A stretch of 5,261 nt of DNA, from NCBI GenBank assembly GCA_022565195.1, contig JADFJZ010000156.1, positions 1 through 5,261 on the forward strand. The letters are read 5' to 3'. Shown here one piece after another: positions 2-5,261 of this stretch (position 1 is the first letter of the stretch; every line of letters starts with the position of its first letter). Source of the DNA: Planctomycetota bacterium (GTDB taxonomy: Bacteria; Planctomycetota; Phycisphaerae; UBA1845; CAIVHJ01). The notes below the pieces were generated by a model. The model was not told the DNA's origin and did not search any database. It saw only the letters and a program-made list of their open reading frames with translations. The translations under genes were made by a program, and so were the position numbers.

Positions 2-646
2 ACCTATTTTGTTATGCGGGCCGCCGCTGGCGCAGGCGCGAGCGGTGTGGTGCCGTTGCTCATCGAGGCTTTGGACAACCCGGATGCCGGGATCCGCCGC
101 GAAGCCCTCGGTTCTTTGGCATTGATGGGTGATTGCGAAGCGGCGAGGGCTCAGGTCGTCCGCGTTGCCCGAAGCCTGGGCGATTCCGAGCCGGTTGTTC
201 GCATGGTGGCCTGTGCGGCGCTCAGTAATCTGGCGGATCCTGCCGATGCCGAAGTAATAGATGCCCTGGCCGACGCCCATTTGGCCGATGAGGATCAAGA
301 TGTTCGCTGGAACGCGGCCATGACTCTGGCCCGCCTCGGCAGTCCGAAGGCACTGCCAACGATCGCGGACATGTTGCAGAGGAGCTATTGGCAGAATCAA
401 AGGGTTCAATTCCAATCTTCAGAAGGTAGAATGGTGGATCGGTCCTTGGCGCCCGAGCGCGTCAACGAGTATTTGATCACCGCGATCGAGGCTGCCGAGA
501 ACCTCGATGATGGAGTAATTTGGGGTCGCATTGAGGACCTCACCAAGGACCAAGTGTTGAGGGTGGTCGGCCGGGCCAGACGGGCCATCGCCGATCGGGC
601 AGGTTCGGGCCACGATTCCCCCGACGCAGATGCGGAGCAAGAGTGA
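2..646 (+). CDS. HEAT-repeat protein, 3' part (5' end outside window)
   Basis: The frame is open to the left edge. The first ATG is at 14, but the residues before it (T-Y-F-V from base 2) already fit the second helix of a HEAT repeat, so the true start is probably upstream. Numbered from that ATG, HEAT-like helix pairs occupy about residues 1-20 (half repeat), 22-40, 57-76 and 92-120, with the usual V-P-L-L-I-E-A-L and V-R-W-N-A-A pattern. Residues 145-195 form a further helical, charged region, and the tail is acidic (DSPDADAEQE). There is no signal peptide, membrane segment or cysteine cofactor motif, so it is probably a soluble protein-protein scaffold. Its stop TGA (644-646) shares a base with the next ATG, which suggests translational coupling to the ferredoxin/Rieske gene and a role with, or in assembly of, the Rieske-cytochrome b complex. 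The HEAT fold is well supported; the role is inferred from neighbours only. Confidence 0.8.
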   Translation, partial: TYFVMRAAAGAGASGVVPLLIEALDNPDAGIRREALGSLALMGDCEAARAQVVRVARSLGDSEPVVRMVACAALSNLADPADAEVIDALADAHLADEDQDVRWNAAMTLARLGSPKALPTIADMLQRSYWQNQRVQFQSSEGRMVDRSLAPERVNEYLITAIEAAENLDDGVIWGRIEDLTKDQVLRVVGRARRAIADRAGSGHDSPDADAEQE

Positions 647-648
647 TG
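634..648 (+). promoter_or_regulatory. Shine-Dalgarno GGAG and TGATG stop-start overlap
   Basis: GGAG at 634-637 lies 8 bases before ATG 646, and the upstream stop TGA (644-646) shares its A with that ATG. This favours ATG 646 over the in-frame GTG at 643 and indicates translational coupling between the HEAT protein and the ferredoxin module. It is the only clear Shine-Dalgarno site among the starts visible in this window. Confidence 0.65.
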
Positions 649-1074
649 CCGACGAAGGAACTGATAACGAAAGTCTGGATCGATCCCGGCTGCATCGTGT
701 GCGATGCCTGCGAGACGGCGGCACCTACGGTGTTCGAGGTCCTGGAAGAAACCTGCATCGTCAGGCCCGCGGCGCTTGACATGGAGTTCACCAAGCCGCT
801 GACCGAGTCGATCATCGAGGCCGCCGAAGAGTGCCCGGTCGACGTGATCAAGTTCGAGACGGTCGCCACGGAAGTCAGCGAAGAAGAGTTGGCCCCGCCG
901 CCTCCGCCAAGACCGAGAAATCGGCGTCGCCGGAAGCGCCTTCCTCTGAAGCCGACGCCGCCATCGCGGCGTTTAGCAGCAAGACCGTCCCCGACGCGCC
1001 CGAAGGCCCTGTCGATCCAGCCATCAGCGCTCTTCTCAAGGCTGTTACCGCCCGCGGCGGCAGCAGCGGCGTGA
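646..1074 (+). CDS. [4Fe-4S] ferredoxin module, probably the N-terminal domain of a frameshifted ferredoxin-Rieske fusion
   Basis: Residues 1-75 (M1 at 646) are a small single-cluster ferredoxin. C16-x2-C19-x2-C22 lies near the N-terminus and C63-P64 near residue 63, the classic CxxCxxC...CP arrangement for one [4Fe-4S] cluster; C37 is an extra cysteine. The core is acidic like other ferredoxins. After about residue 81 (E-L-A-P-P-P-P) the frame becomes a Pro/Arg-rich stretch ending in poly-Ala, which looks like out-of-frame translation. The frame one base back carries a normal Ala/Ser/Glu linker leading into the Rieske domain. I therefore think only 646 to about 890 is genuine coding in this frame, and that 890-1074 is read through only because of an indel, or is bypassed by recoding. 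The stop TGA at 1072-1074 overlaps a possible GTG start at 1071 in the Rieske frame. The ferredoxin identity is firm; the end point is not. Confidence 0.75.
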   Translation: MPTKELITKVWIDPGCIVCDACETAAPTVFEVLEETCIVRPAALDMEFTKPLTESIIEAAEECPVDVIKFETVATEVSEEELAPPPPPRPRNRRRRKRLPLKPTPPSRRLAARPSPTRPKALSIQPSALFSRLLPPAAAAAA

Positions 1075-1709
1075 CTGCGGGAGGCACAAACGCCCGAGCC
1101 GCTCTGGACAGCTTGGCCAAGAAGAAGTTCGACGATTTGCCACCCGACGCGCGATACACACGCGTGTTGGAGTCGTCGCGTGAGGTGAACAAGAAGGATC
1201 CCAAAGCGGATGCACTGTCCCGCCGCGAGTTTGTCAACACAGCCGCTTTGACGGTGGGTTGGCTTTCGCTGGGAGGAACGATCGCGGTCAGCGCCGGCCC
1301 GGCTTTCGGGCGGTTCATGATGCCCAACGTCCTGGAAGAGCCCGATCCCAAGGTTCGCCTCGGCCCCAAGGAGAAGTACGACGCCATGGAGCCGGGAGAA
1401 GTTAGTGAGGACTCCAAGAAAGACGGCATTTGGATGATCCGGCTGGAGGATCGCTTCGCCGCCCTGTCCACAACCTGCACGCACCTTGGCTGCATTCCCA
1501 ATTGGCTGGAGAGCGACCGTAAGTTCAAGTGCCCCTGCCACGGCAGTGGATTCAAGCAGGACGGCATCAATTTTGAAGGTCCCGCACCGCGTCCGCTCGA
1601 ACGACTGGACATTAAACTGGTCGACGGGCAGGTGGTCGTGAATAAGAGTGTGAAATTCTTGCAGGAACAAGGGCAGTGGGATGATCCCAACAGCTATATG
1701 CTGGTCTAA
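831..1709 (+). CDS. Rieske [2Fe-2S] protein of a cytochrome bc/b6f-type complex (start uncertain)
   Basis: The Rieske subunit takes electrons from quinol at the Qo site of cytochrome b and passes them to a cytochrome acceptor. Numbered from GTG 831, box 1 is C216-T-H218-L-G-C221 and box 2 is C234-P-C236-H237-G-S. The expected cluster ligands are C216, H218, C234 and H237, with a C221-C236 disulfide. The G-P-A-P-R-P-L segment that follows box 2 is also typical. S-R-R-E-F (130-134) followed by a hydrophobic segment (about 137-160) is a Tat-type uncleaved anchor, placing the Rieske head on the p-side and everything before residue 130 in the cytoplasm. Residues 1-20 overlap the ferredoxin frame and look like noise. 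Residues 23-125 look like real linker. There is no credible start upstream of the linker, so the protein is best explained as the C-terminal part of a ferredoxin-Rieske fusion. A less likely separate start is GTG 1071, giving 212 residues. Rieske identity is certain; the N-terminus is not. Confidence 0.85.
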   Translation: MPGRRDQVRDGRHGSQRRRVGPAASAKTEKSASPEAPSSEADAAIAAFSSKTVPDAPEGPVDPAISALLKAVTARGGSSGVTAGGTNARAALDSLAKKKFDDLPPDARYTRVLESSREVNKKDPKADALSRREFVNTAALTVGWLSLGGTIAVSAGPAFGRFMMPNVLEEPDPKVRLGPKEKYDAMEPGEVSEDSKKDGIWMIRLEDRFAALSTTCTHLGCIPNWLESDRKFKCPCHGSGFKQDGINFEGPAPRPLERLDIKLVDGQVVVNKSVKFLQEQGQWDDPNSYMLV

Positions 1710-1852: not shown

Positions 1853-2638
1853 ATGAGTGTGTTCCGAGCATTCGGAGACTACGTTCGCGATTCGCAGATC
1901 TGGGGAAGCATCTTCCGGCATGGCGTGCCGCGCGACCGCCGGACGCGCGCCATGGCCATTCTGACCAACGTCTTCTTGCACTTGCACCCCGTGGCGGTTC
2001 GCCGCAGCGGGATCAAGCTGTCGTTTACTTGGTGCATGGGCGGGCTGACCTTCTTCCTCTTTCTCGTCGAAACCGTCACTGGTGTATTGCTGATGTTCTA
2101 CTACCGCCCGACGGTCGAGTACGCCTATTTCGACATGCAGGGCTTGCGGGCCCATGTGACGCTCGGCCTGTTGCGCGAGATGCACCGCTGGGGCGCTCAC
2201 GCCATGATCATCACCATTTGGCTGCACATGCTGCGCGTGTTCCTGACCGGCAGTTACAAGCCGCCGCGCGAGTTCAACTGGGGCATCGGCGTCATTCTGT
2301 TGGTTCTGACATTGCTGTTGTCGTTTACGGGCTACCTGCTGCCCTGGGACCAGTTGGCCATGTGGGCCATCACGGTGGGCTCGAACATGGCCCGGGCAAC
2401 TCCATTCGTCGGCAACGAGGGACCCGGGGCCGCCCTGATCCAGTTCGCCGGCGTGCCACTCGTCCATTCGGGGGATGATGCGCGCTTCGGGTTGCTGGCG
2501 GGCACTTTTGTCGGACCTAATGCGCTGCTGCGCTTTTACGTGTTGCACTGCGTCTTTATCCCGATCGTTGTTTCGGTTCTGATTGCCACGCACTTCTGGC
2601 GTGTTCGCAAGGACGGCGGCATCAGCGGGCCGCTGTAG
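1853..2638 (+). CDS. Cytochrome b N-terminal subunit, b6-like, four transmembrane helices
   Basis: This is the diheme membrane subunit of the quinol-oxidising Rieske/cytochrome b complex. It has 261 residues with helices at about 57-83, 110-132, 143-165 and 224-248, preceded by an amphipathic N-terminal stretch. Heme-b ligands are H111/H125 (spacing 14) and H232/H247 (spacing 15). The 15-residue second spacing is the b6f-type value, one longer than in most bc1 enzymes. C61, in T-W-C-M-G-G-L-T before helix A, aligns with the b6 cysteine that covalently binds heme ci. F-Y-Y-R-P-T-V, P-W-D-Q and the C-terminal G-I-S-G-P-L are also b6-like. An in-frame TAG at 1826-1828 and no earlier start codon fix the start at ATG 1853. 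Only a weak GAGAGA (1835-1840) lies upstream. The C-terminal half of cytochrome b is the separate next gene, again as in b6f. The family call is firm. Confidence 0.95.
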
Positions 2639-2722: not shown

Positions 2723-3856
2723 ATGATGGAATTCCTCCTCGCACAAACGCCCCACACGACTGGTGAAGTGATCAAGGACTTCATCAACCAGGCGCTCCAG
2801 CCGGCGTGGTTCTTCGCCATGGCCGTGACCGCGCTGGCGATATTCCTGCTGGGGTATCGCTTTTTCACCAAGCCGAGGGTGGCCCTCCTTGCTGCCATCG
2901 CAGCCGCGGTTGGATTCGGGCTGAGCATGCTCGATGAGGACTTCCTCAAGATCGTCACTAAGGCGGACAATGTTCCCATTGTGATGATGCTCATGGGCGT
3001 CGGCTTTTGCCTGTGGCTGGCGTTCCGCCAGGCGGCCATCAACGACGAACGAACGGAAAAGGGCCAACCGCTGCTTGAAGCCGGCTCCGATGACAAAGTG
3101 TTGGTTTGGCCGGATCTTGTCTATGTCGAATTGATCGCGCTGGTGTTGTGTACGGCGTTCCTGATCGTCTGGGCTATTGTCCTCCGCGCCCCGCTCGAGC
3201 AGCCGGCCGACCCGTCCACCATTCCCAATCCCTCCAAGGCGCCGTGGTACTTCCTCGGCCTGCAGGAATTGCTGGTGTACTTTGATCCCTGGATCGCCGG
3301 CGTGCTGCTGCCCGGCCTCATTGTCGTGGGTCTGATTTCCATTCCTTACATCGATCGCAACCCCAAAGGCAACGGCTACTACACGTTCAAAGAGCGGCCA
3401 TTCGCCATCACGTCGTATATGTTGGGCTTCGTCATCATGTGGGTGCTCTTGATTGTCTTTGGCACTTTCCTGCGCGGGCCGAACTGGAACTTCTTCGGAC
3501 CCTTCGAGTACTGGGACGACCAGAAACGCGTCGCCTTGGTCAACCTGCAGTTTTACGAACTCTTCTGGGTCAAGATCCTCGGCGGCGGCGAACCGGAAGG
3601 ATGGTCCAAGACCTTCGCATTTCTCCCCCGCGAGTTGCCCGGACTGTTGTTTATGTTCGGCTACTTCTTCATCCTGCCCGTCATCCTCGCGGTCACCGTG
3701 TTCAAGAAGCTCTATAAGCAAATGGGCGTGCCCCGATATGCCACCTTCATGGTGCTGTTCACTTGGACCGCGATCGTCCCGATCAAAATGGTCCTGCGCT
3801 GGACCATGGACTTCAAGTACTTCGTCAACATCCGCGAGTACTTCTTCAACATTTGA
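2723..3856 (+). CDS. Cytochrome b C-terminal subunit, enlarged subunit-IV-like protein
   Basis: This subunit supplies the second half of cytochrome b and part of the Qo quinol-oxidation pocket. It has 377 residues, against about 160 for b6f subunit IV. The subunit-IV core spans about 128-250: V-W-P-D-L near 128-132, helix at 132-154, the A-D-P-S-T-I-P loop, the Qo motif at 173-176, then helices at 190-210 and 230-250. The Qo motif reads A-P-W-Y instead of P-E-W-Y, with Glu182 eight residues after the missing Glu position. An N-terminal extension adds three helices (about 27-48, 52-69, 83-102) and a C-terminal extension adds two (306-327, 340-360), ending in Y-F-F-N-I. TAG at 2717-2719 lies in frame just upstream, so translation starts at ATG 2723 or 2726; no Shine-Dalgarno is evident. 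It contains no CxxCH, so no cytochrome c domain is fused. I recall similar extended forms in other bacterial phyla, but could not check this. Confidence 0.92.
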   Translation: MMEFLLAQTPHTTGEVIKDFINQALQPAWFFAMAVTALAIFLLGYRFFTKPRVALLAAIAAAVGFGLSMLDEDFLKIVTKADNVPIVMMLMGVGFCLWLAFRQAAINDERTEKGQPLLEAGSDDKVLVWPDLVYVELIALVLCTAFLIVWAIVLRAPLEQPADPSTIPNPSKAPWYFLGLQELLVYFDPWIAGVLLPGLIVVGLISIPYIDRNPKGNGYYTFKERPFAITSYMLGFVIMWVLLIVFGTFLRGPNWNFFGPFEYWDDQKRVALVNLQFYELFWVKILGGGEPEGWSKTFAFLPRELPGLLFMFGYFFILPVILAVTVFKKLYKQMGVPRYATFMVLFTWTAIVPIKMVLRWTMDFKYFVNIREYFFNI

Positions 3857-3860
3857 ACGA

Positions 3861-3902
3861 ATGCGGAATGCGGATTGCGGATTGCGGATTGCGGATTGAA
3901 GA
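3861..3902 (+). repeat. 7-bp tandem repeat array (WTGCGGA)
   Basis: Five consecutive 7-base units are visible: ATGCGGA twice, then TTGCGGA three times, followed by a degenerate TTGAAGA. The array starts 4 bases after the cytochrome b stop codon. On the opposite strand it reads as repeated AATCCGC, and if translated would give a repeating seven-residue peptide, which is why spurious ORFs appear here. It is probably a slippage-prone intergenic microsatellite between convergent genes. Confidence 0.85.
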
Positions 3903-3909
3903 ATCCGAG

Positions 3910-3929
3910 CCCGGAGCGCAAGCGACGGG
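3910..3929 (+). other. Compact hairpin with tandem G-A pairs and a GCAA tetraloop
   Basis: The 20 bases divide as CCCG-GA-GC-GCAA-GC-GA-CGGG. CCCG pairs with CGGG, the two GA steps face each other as tandem G-A mismatches of the sheared type, GC pairs with GC, and the loop is GCAA, a GNRA tetraloop. G3909 and T3930 could add a G-U pair. No T run follows, so it is not an ordinary terminator. It lies between convergent genes and resembles an intergenic element I associate with planctomycetes (recollection, not checked). Confidence 0.45.
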
Positions 3930-3935
3930 TCGATC

Positions 3936-3956
3936 CCAGCGCGTGCTGGAGGTTTT
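3936..3956 (+). terminator. Possible weak intrinsic terminator of the cytochrome b cluster
   Basis: CCAGC (3936-3940) pairs with GCTGG (3945-3949) across a 4-base loop, followed after three bases by TTTT (3953-3956). The stem is only 5 bp and the T tract only four, so this is a weak candidate. Its place, about 80 bases after the last + strand gene and before the convergent peptidase gene, fits termination of the + strand unit. On the - strand no T run follows the stem. Confidence 0.35.
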
Positions 3957-3978
3957 GTAAACACGATCGACGACGGAA

Positions 3979-5261
3979 TCACAGGTATTTATGCACGATT
4001 CGCCGAACGCGCCGTTCGTCAAATGGCCGCGTGTTTGCACCAAAGATCAGGAAGAAGTTCTTCTTCACGAAGACGCGATCCAACAATTCCGTCAAGTCCT
4101 TCATTTCAATTTCACGGATGATGCGATTCTCCTGCTCCATCGTCAGAGGGCGCTCTTCCTTCCGCGCGCAAATTTCCTCTGAGCCGATGCGGTGGGCGAT
4201 GGATTCCGGGAAGTCCAAAGCTCTCTGAACCCAATACAGATATCGTTCACGCGTGAGCGTCAGCCAACTTTCTGGGTACAAGCCTTGTTTGAGTGCTTCG
4301 AATTCACCGAGGAGGAGATTCAAGAACGCGTCCCGGTCTCCGCGATTTGTGACAGCATGAACATAGAACATCGTCCGGCCACCCAGGCTTTCGTAAGTCG
4401 GCTCGAAACTGTACACGCTCGTATCGCCGTACCTGGATTTCTCAAACAGCGGGCAGGAAATCAGGCCCAATCCCAGCGGCAGCATCCGTAACACAATCTC
4501 ACTCTTCTGTGGCAGTGATTCCGGAATAATGAAGCCGCCTACAACGTGGCGGATCGCACCTTCCGGTGTCTCACGCCGGAGTTGCGGCAGCCTCAGCGCA
4601 GGATAGACCGGGGACGCAACAGCCTCCGTTTCCCCGGCGCTCCATCCACTCAAGCGCTCTCTGGCATGATTCAATTCGCAATCCAGGATCGGACCAGAGA
4701 TGACCACAACAGTGTTTCGAGGCGTGAAGTGTTTTCTGTCGAACTCGCTGATCTGGTCGCACTTGAGCTTGCGAATTGATGATTTCGTACCCATGGACGG
4801 TTTCGATAGAGGATGTTTGCGGTCCAAGCGGCTGTAGATATACCGCGCATCTATTTCCTCCTGTGAACACTTGATCTCGTTGATCACGAGCTGCTTTTCG
4901 GATTTCAAAATGTCATCGGGATACGGTCTGGCCTCCAACAGCTCCGTCAGCAACTCGGCAGCACGGCCAACGTGCTGTGGCGGCGAATCGATGTGGAACT
5001 GCACATACTGCGGATAGGTGAAAGCGTTCATTTCACCAGGGATGCTGTCGATCGCCCTAAGGAGTTCGAGGCGCGACGGATAACTTCGAGTCACTGACAT
5101 GTGCAGGTGCTCAAGCAAGTGGCTCACACCGCTGTTCGTGTGATCCTCGTACGTCATTCCCGCCCTCACAAATGCGTTCATGACAGTGCTCTGTACGTGC
5201 GGCATGTCGTGGCGGATCAATTTCAGCCCGTTCTCAAGCACCTCTGTTTGGTATTCGTATC
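3979..5261 (-). CDS. M16 family zinc metallopeptidase, 5' end outside window
   Basis: The reading frame runs off the right edge. The first start-like codon inside is GTG 5241, but the residues before it (Y-E-Y-Q-T-E) already fit the usual lead-in to the L-x-N-G-L motif, so the true start is a little upstream. Numbered from that GTG, the zinc site is H41-L-L-E44-H45 with the third ligand E122, exactly 76 residues after H45 as in the family signature HxxEH(x)76E; E115 gives the E-x6-E pair. M71-N-A-F-T is the family's N-A-x-T element. A second M16-like half follows from about residue 230 and keeps R270 and Y277 in the C-terminal R...Y position. At least 420 residues is normal for a one-chain M16B peptidase. 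The usual F-x-G-T after HxxEH is replaced by H-M-S-V-T-R-S-Y. It is likely an active endopeptidase; the substrate is unknown. It is convergent with the cytochrome genes and probably unrelated to them. Confidence 0.92.
   Translation of the reverse strand, partial: YEYQTEVLENGLKLIRHDMPHVQSTVMNAFVRAGMTYEDHTNSGVSHLLEHLHMSVTRSYPSRLELLRAIDSIPGEMNAFTYPQYVQFHIDSPPQHVGRAAELLTELLEARPYPDDILKSEKQLVINEIKCSQEEIDARYIYSRLDRKHPLSKPSMGTKSSIRKLKCDQISEFDRKHFTPRNTVVVISGPILDCELNHARERLSGWSAGETEAVASPVYPALRLPQLRRETPEGAIRHVVGGFIIPESLPQKSEIVLRMLPLGLGLISCPLFEKSRYGDTSVYSFEPTYESLGGRTMFYVHAVTNRGDRDAFLNLLLGEFEALKQGLYPESWLTLTRERYLYWVQRALDFPESIAHRIGSEEICARKEERPLTMEQENRIIREIEMKDLTELLDRVFVKKNFFLIFGANTRPFDERRVRRIVHKYL

Follow-up and report, generated by a model that had tools for sequence, protein, structure and literature searches.

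Sequence comparison shows a genuine and conserved fusion of a single-cluster ferredoxin to the Rieske subunit of a b6f-like respiratory complex, which may thereby possess a dedicated entry or exit for electrons on the inner side of the membrane. The window, i.e. the whole stretch of 5,261 nucleotides analysed here, carries on its forward strand a truncated HEAT-repeat gene, a ferredoxin frame, a Rieske frame, a cytochrome b6-type gene and the gene of an enlarged subunit IV, in this order (Table 1). Searches of the open-licence literature turned up no description of such a fusion, and the Rieske proteins of plants and cyanobacteria are not known to have a ferredoxin domain.

Table 1. Positions of the features in the window
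Feature	Position	Strand	Details
HEAT-repeat protein, 5' part missing at window start	2..646	+	Pfam HEAT_2, E 3.6e-17
Ferredoxin domain and start of linker	646..894	+	Fer4_13; P0001 residues 1-83
Frame break, approximate position	892..903	+	Frame shift between 894 and 897 relative to P0001; C/G-rich run
Linker, two conserved motifs within low-conservation stretches	897..1220	+	
Arg-Arg (1221-1226) and hydrophobic segment, presumed Tat signal-anchor	1221..1298	+	
Rieske [2Fe-2S] head	1326..1706	+	Pfam Rieske; CTHLGC from 1476, CPCH from 1530; stop ends 1709
Cytochrome b6-type subunit	1853..2638	+	Heme-ci Cys61 (codon 2033-2035); heme b His111/125/232/247
Enlarged subunit IV	2723..3856	+	Glu136 (3128-3130); APWYF replaces PEWY
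M16-family peptidase	3857-5261	-	

The ferredoxin motif CIVCDAC...CPVDVI lies in a frame that is open from 643 to 1074, starts with the ATG at 646 and has its ligand Cys codons at 691, 700, 709 and 832. Its C..C..C...CP ligands and a match to the Pfam profile Fer4_13 that passes the cut-off (E 7.5e-07) define a single-cluster ferredoxin, predicted to bind a [4Fe-4S] cluster. The second frame, open from 831 to 1709, encodes ALSRREF, a hydrophobic segment and then CTHLGC...CPCHGS (Pfam Rieske, E 1.7e-08), i.e. the CTHxGC...CPCHGS motif of a Rieske subunit downstream of an Arg-Arg signal-anchor. Both the CxxCxxC...CP module and the S-R-R-E-F anchor with its Rieske head, as described in the first-pass annotation, were thus confirmed; in an alignment of relatives the four cluster cysteines and the internal Arg-Arg ahead of the hydrophobic segment are each invariant (35/35).

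The same annotation had read the two frames as an apparent fusion. This holds for the relatives, in which ferredoxin and Rieske domains form one protein of 353 residues, but not for the window, which has two frames and no single ORF. Four database proteins (P0001-P0004) are continuous over 353 aa and 95-98% identical to the Rieske frame of the window; frame 1 of the window encodes residues 1-83 of P0001 at 646-894 (98.8% identity), and frame 3 encodes residues 84-353 at 897-1706 (98.1%). As these proteins are uninterrupted, the frame break is peculiar to the window sequence, and by this comparison the window holds a normally fused gene with a local frame break, due to either a mutation or an assembly error. 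The Rieske frame matches fused relatives at E values as low as 1.5e-172, which argues that the fusion is not a product of chance.

Among the best 120 of 7997 scored candidates listed in a search with the Rieske-frame protein, 113 are fused, containing both ferredoxin and Rieske motifs. The remaining seven (P0009, P0013, P0040, P0059, P0089, P0092 and P0109), located on contigs of 0.9-9.6 kb, are probably fragments. A genome scan confirmed at least 581 stretches, of which 80 were kept: 16 with a ferredoxin, every one titled as a member of the Planctomycetota group, and 64 with no ferredoxin match within the locus. The idea of a fusion present throughout the phylum was rejected: a scan of 391 of its genomes gave matches at E 1e-15 in 209, but full-length ones in just five. 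The class of genome G008, to which loci with the titles Phycisphaerae and Humisphaera belong, was scanned in 198 genomes; 46 of them gave a match, 28 at full length, i.e. with the fusion. The ferredoxin is single-copy in all 14 fused genomes searched at E 1e-5 and absent from all six unfused ones. The carriers of the fusion are a group of poorly known bacteria.

The phylogeny was built from 123 distinct Rieske heads (identical heads were removed, and no ORF could be used from loci L016, L065 and L146). All 37 fused heads, together with the head of genome G534, in which the two parts are re-split, form a single clade with support of 100/94. The G534 sequence is nested within this clade, on a long branch which makes its placement less sure. 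We read the tree as two changes, one gain and one loss of the fusion, provided that the root lies outside the clade. The existence of such a re-split pair, along with the two overlapping frames of the window, could be taken to mean that ferredoxin and Rieske subunit are two separate proteins in the source organism of the window as well. This is very improbable: the relatives at 95-98% identity are continuous, the window and the re-split sequence sit apart in the tree, and in G534 the ferredoxin-linker frame ends with a TGA four bases 5' of the Rieske-frame ATG, an arrangement that differs from the window. Two overlapping genes as the usual state were rejected, as the close relatives are continuous; had the relatives encoded two proteins, the fusion proposed in the first-pass annotation would have failed, but they are mostly single proteins, with one branch re-split.

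The ferredoxin part is conserved to the same degree as the Rieske head (0.82 versus 0.81). The tether is of conserved length: in all 39 ORFs measured, some of whose loci share a genome, 116-144 residues separate the ferredoxin from the Arg-Arg, and a further 81-87 lead from there to the first Rieske Cys. The hydrophobic segment is weak, the top 19-residue hydropathy being merely 1.37 (P0001 residues 199-217). Since the ferredoxin precedes the internal Arg-Arg of the presumed Tat signal-anchor, we infer that it would reside on the cytoplasmic side. A hand estimate for a coil tether puts the effective ferredoxin concentration at the complex near 1 mM.

Within the linker, two motifs, DPAISALLKAVTARGG and LPPDAR, stand out, with a majority-residue share of 0.76 and 0.79 against 0.37-0.49 in their surroundings. 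By patterns defined after sight of the sequences, a PxDxR-type motif is present in 99 of the 113 listed fused proteins, in 19 of 36 fused locus ORFs and in one of 48 unfused Rieske proteins with a long N-terminus; the corresponding numbers for a DPxIxALL-RGG-type motif are 109/113, 28/36 and 0/48.

The cytochrome partner is of the b6f type, being split into a b6-type cytochrome b, which has the four heme His, and a subunit IV, here enlarged to eight hydrophobic segments (counted by eye). In 27 of 29 fused loci the next gene of the complex after the fusion is that of cytochrome b; in the genomes of the two exceptions, L014 and L165 (G012 and G251), it is found on another contig, apart from the fused gene. 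Cys61 aligns with Cys35 of spinach b6, the heme-ci (cN) cysteine, as the first-pass annotation had supposed, and is invariant in 16/16 fused and 62/62 unfused rows. Glu136 of subunit IV aligns with Phe40, the second-ligand position (invariant in 25/25 fused and 61/61 unfused sequences), and His43 and His45 of cytochrome b are likewise invariant (28/28 and 62/62). A study of anammox complexes associates a glutamate in this place with a low potential of heme cN, and models an extra interface heme b on His43 of Kuste4571 and His62 of Kustd1481 (PMC12954380). Cys, Glu and His43/His45 do not tell fused from unfused complexes. As the Cys and Glu are equally invariant in complexes without a ferredoxin, they are on their own no argument for a ferredoxin link.

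The solved structure nearest to the Rieske head is 9rk3 (E 3.8e-36), which is Kustd1480 of Kuenenia stuttgartiensis. The closest precedent is provided by the Rieske/cytochrome b complexes of anammox bacteria, Kustd1480-1485 and Kuste4569-4574, which carry an NAD(P) oxidoreductase on the n-side; published models connect n-side FeS clusters to heme cN in these anammox relatives (PMC12954380). Shared with them are the b6-like cytochrome b, the enlarged subunit IV, the Glu that takes the place of a heme cN ligand, an FeS-bearing module (here presumably on the n-side) and, in 20 of 29 fused loci, a p-side multiheme cytochrome c. The module itself differs: in Kuenenia separate subunits with FAD and several FeS clusters make up the NAD(P) oxidoreductase, here it is a single-cluster ferredoxin on the Rieske protein. 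By motif scan, FeS/flavin NAD(P) oxidoreductase subunits were not recognized in the fused operons: in the 27 of 29 fused loci with cytochrome b, the one CxxCxxCxxxC ORF flagged was the fusion of L016 itself. With cytochrome b6f the complex shares the split cytochrome b6 and subunit IV and the heme-ci Cys, but no cytochrome f was found in the loci read, nor any CxxCH-bearing gene downstream in the window. A block of Rieske, cytochrome b6, subunit IV and large multiheme cytochrome genes is conserved across loci L017-L080, titled Poribacteria, Marinimicrobia, Omnitrophota, Acidobacteria and Planctomycetota. One of these, L045, is titled Kuenenia stuttgartiensis and was rejected as the Kustd1480 operon, as its Rieske protein differs from 9rk3; it groups with an Isosphaeraceae sequence, and mis-binning is possible.

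The same ferredoxin domain occurs beyond the fusion. At E 1e-8 it was detected in 35 of 382 genomes of the phylum, five of these hits being the Rieske fusions. Of 25 other loci viewed, one (L175) joins the domain to a NuoI-like protein and another (L173) is truncated; the remainder appear by eye to be stand-alone ferredoxins. These Planctomycetota single-cluster ferredoxins share the domain and the KVWI..GCI.C..C and CP pattern of the fused one, but have a complex I-like partner or none instead of the Rieske subunit. In three database proteins (P0157-P0159) the partner has Fer4 domains according to Pfam, and in our reading it is NuoI-like, as in L175. The domain is placed in these four cases at the C-terminus of the two-cluster protein, behind an Ala/Pro/Lys-rich linker. 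Judged by its domains, the NuoI-like fusion parallels the Rieske fusion, as it would put the same ferredoxin on another quinone-linked complex.

We hypothesize that the fusion forms a tethered n-side [4Fe-4S] port on a b6f-like complex, through which ferredoxin electrons would reach the n-side hemes and quinone. This reading is tentative, our confidence in it falling just short of even, and it draws on the inferred topology, the conserved ligands, the precedent in anammox bacteria and the attachment of the same domain to a complex I-like subunit elsewhere. In such a Rieske/cytochrome b complex the Rieske N-terminus normally carries the ferredoxin, whose long and presumably flexible tether would let it work as a swinging arm, loaded perhaps by soluble donors, e.g. 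2-oxoacid:ferredoxin oxidoreductases; electrons would then pass from the tethered ferredoxin to the n-side hemes and on to menaquinone or the Q-cycle. Transfer from ferredoxin to quinone would be the easier direction, as it is downhill and requires no membrane crossing. With regard to donors, PF01558 was found in all 30 genomes examined (28 fused, G534 and G431), but lends weak support, since 11 of 14 control genomes match too. NuoF-type genes (PF01512) are also present in 30/30, and other electron entries therefore exist.

The flow could also be reversed. In that case quinol would be bifurcated, one electron leaving via the Rieske protein for a multiheme cytochrome in the periplasm and the second travelling along the b hemes and heme ci to reduce the tethered ferredoxin. 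The head is nearest to Kustd1480, for which a potential of +335 mV was measured; the authors of that study consider it compatible with bifurcation-driven reduction of NAD(P) (PMC12954380). Moreover, a cytochrome with 6-8 CxxCH motifs is encoded next, on the 3' side, in 20 of 29 fused loci (19 of 28 distinct ones, L153 repeating L009), six of the 29 being impossible to judge; that of L153 has MtrC/F-like and cytochrome c domains. On the other hand, the multiheme gene was not found in the flanks seen of L013, L015 and L164, nor in the 1.4 kb of the window beyond subunit IV. In addition, ferredoxins usually have lower potentials than NAD(P), and electron movement from the p- to the n-side opposes the membrane potential. 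We consider the reverse direction quite unlikely. Unfused loci have a 5-8-motif cytochrome in 55 of 64 cases; the other nine either end soon downstream or lack a match to cytochrome b. In a related proposal, the complex would be a quinol:ferredoxin reductase powered by the Q-cycle, bifurcating menaquinol to periplasmic cytochromes and, by way of the b hemes, heme ci and possibly the extra interface heme, to the tethered ferredoxin. We regard this as decidedly unlikely; if true, it would constitute a quinone-based route to low-potential reductant.

It is unlikely that the ferredoxin carries no catalytic electrons and serves instead as a redox or oxygen sensor, or as an assembly or stability element. 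Such a role would be in line with the long tether, with the fact that complexes of the same kind manage without a ferredoxin (64/64 unfused loci kept) and with the long ferredoxin-free N-terminal extensions of other Planctomycetota Rieske proteins. However, the ligand set and the domain are fully conserved, and the sister domains are stand-alone ferredoxins or are attached to a complex I-like subunit. The long extensions were rejected as ferredoxins on reading 11 of them: that of L102 has two Cys-rich zinc-ribbon-like units, and those of L103, L107, L110, L111, L117, L119 and L122 contain short helix-like repeats.

The re-split branch bears on how the tethered port might dock. Eight split-type proteins of 204-252 residues were identified, two of them named (Tepidisphaeraceae and Tepidisphaerales); the full ferredoxin ligand set is present in six and the remaining two start too late. 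All eight have kept the PxDxR-type motif, which suggests that this motif could have a docking role, while the DPxIxALL-RGG-type motif, unlike PxDxR, has been lost from them (0/8, or 3/8 in a looser form). Cytochrome b gave no match at E 1e-20 in the whole, possibly incomplete, G534 assembly and none within 6 kb around the split pair. The ferredoxin half of G534 may therefore serve something else, and the lack of such a match in this re-split genome weakens the docking argument and slightly lowers our confidence in the mechanism.

Work on cyclic electron flow has long asked whether heme ci is the site at which ferredoxin delivers electrons to b6f-type complexes, and ferredoxin input to b6f is a hypothesis. 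A ferredoxin held covalently on the n-side and kept across a bacterial class would make the question testable inside one enzyme. If the port is real, it would represent a second type of n-side redox attachment alongside the anammox NAD(P) oxidoreductase, and would suggest that the n-side of such complexes is an evolutionarily open electron port.

As for the flanking genes, the TGA of the HEAT-repeat gene shares one base with the ferredoxin ATG, and 26 of 29 fused loci, or 25 of 28 distinct ones, have a HEAT relative immediately 5' of the fusion; the protein perhaps has an assembly role. The M16 peptidase was rejected as an operon partner, as none of the ORFs in the loci examined matched it at E 1e-5. 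It occupies the place of the multiheme cytochrome gene found in most fused relatives, with a short GCGGATT repeat in between.
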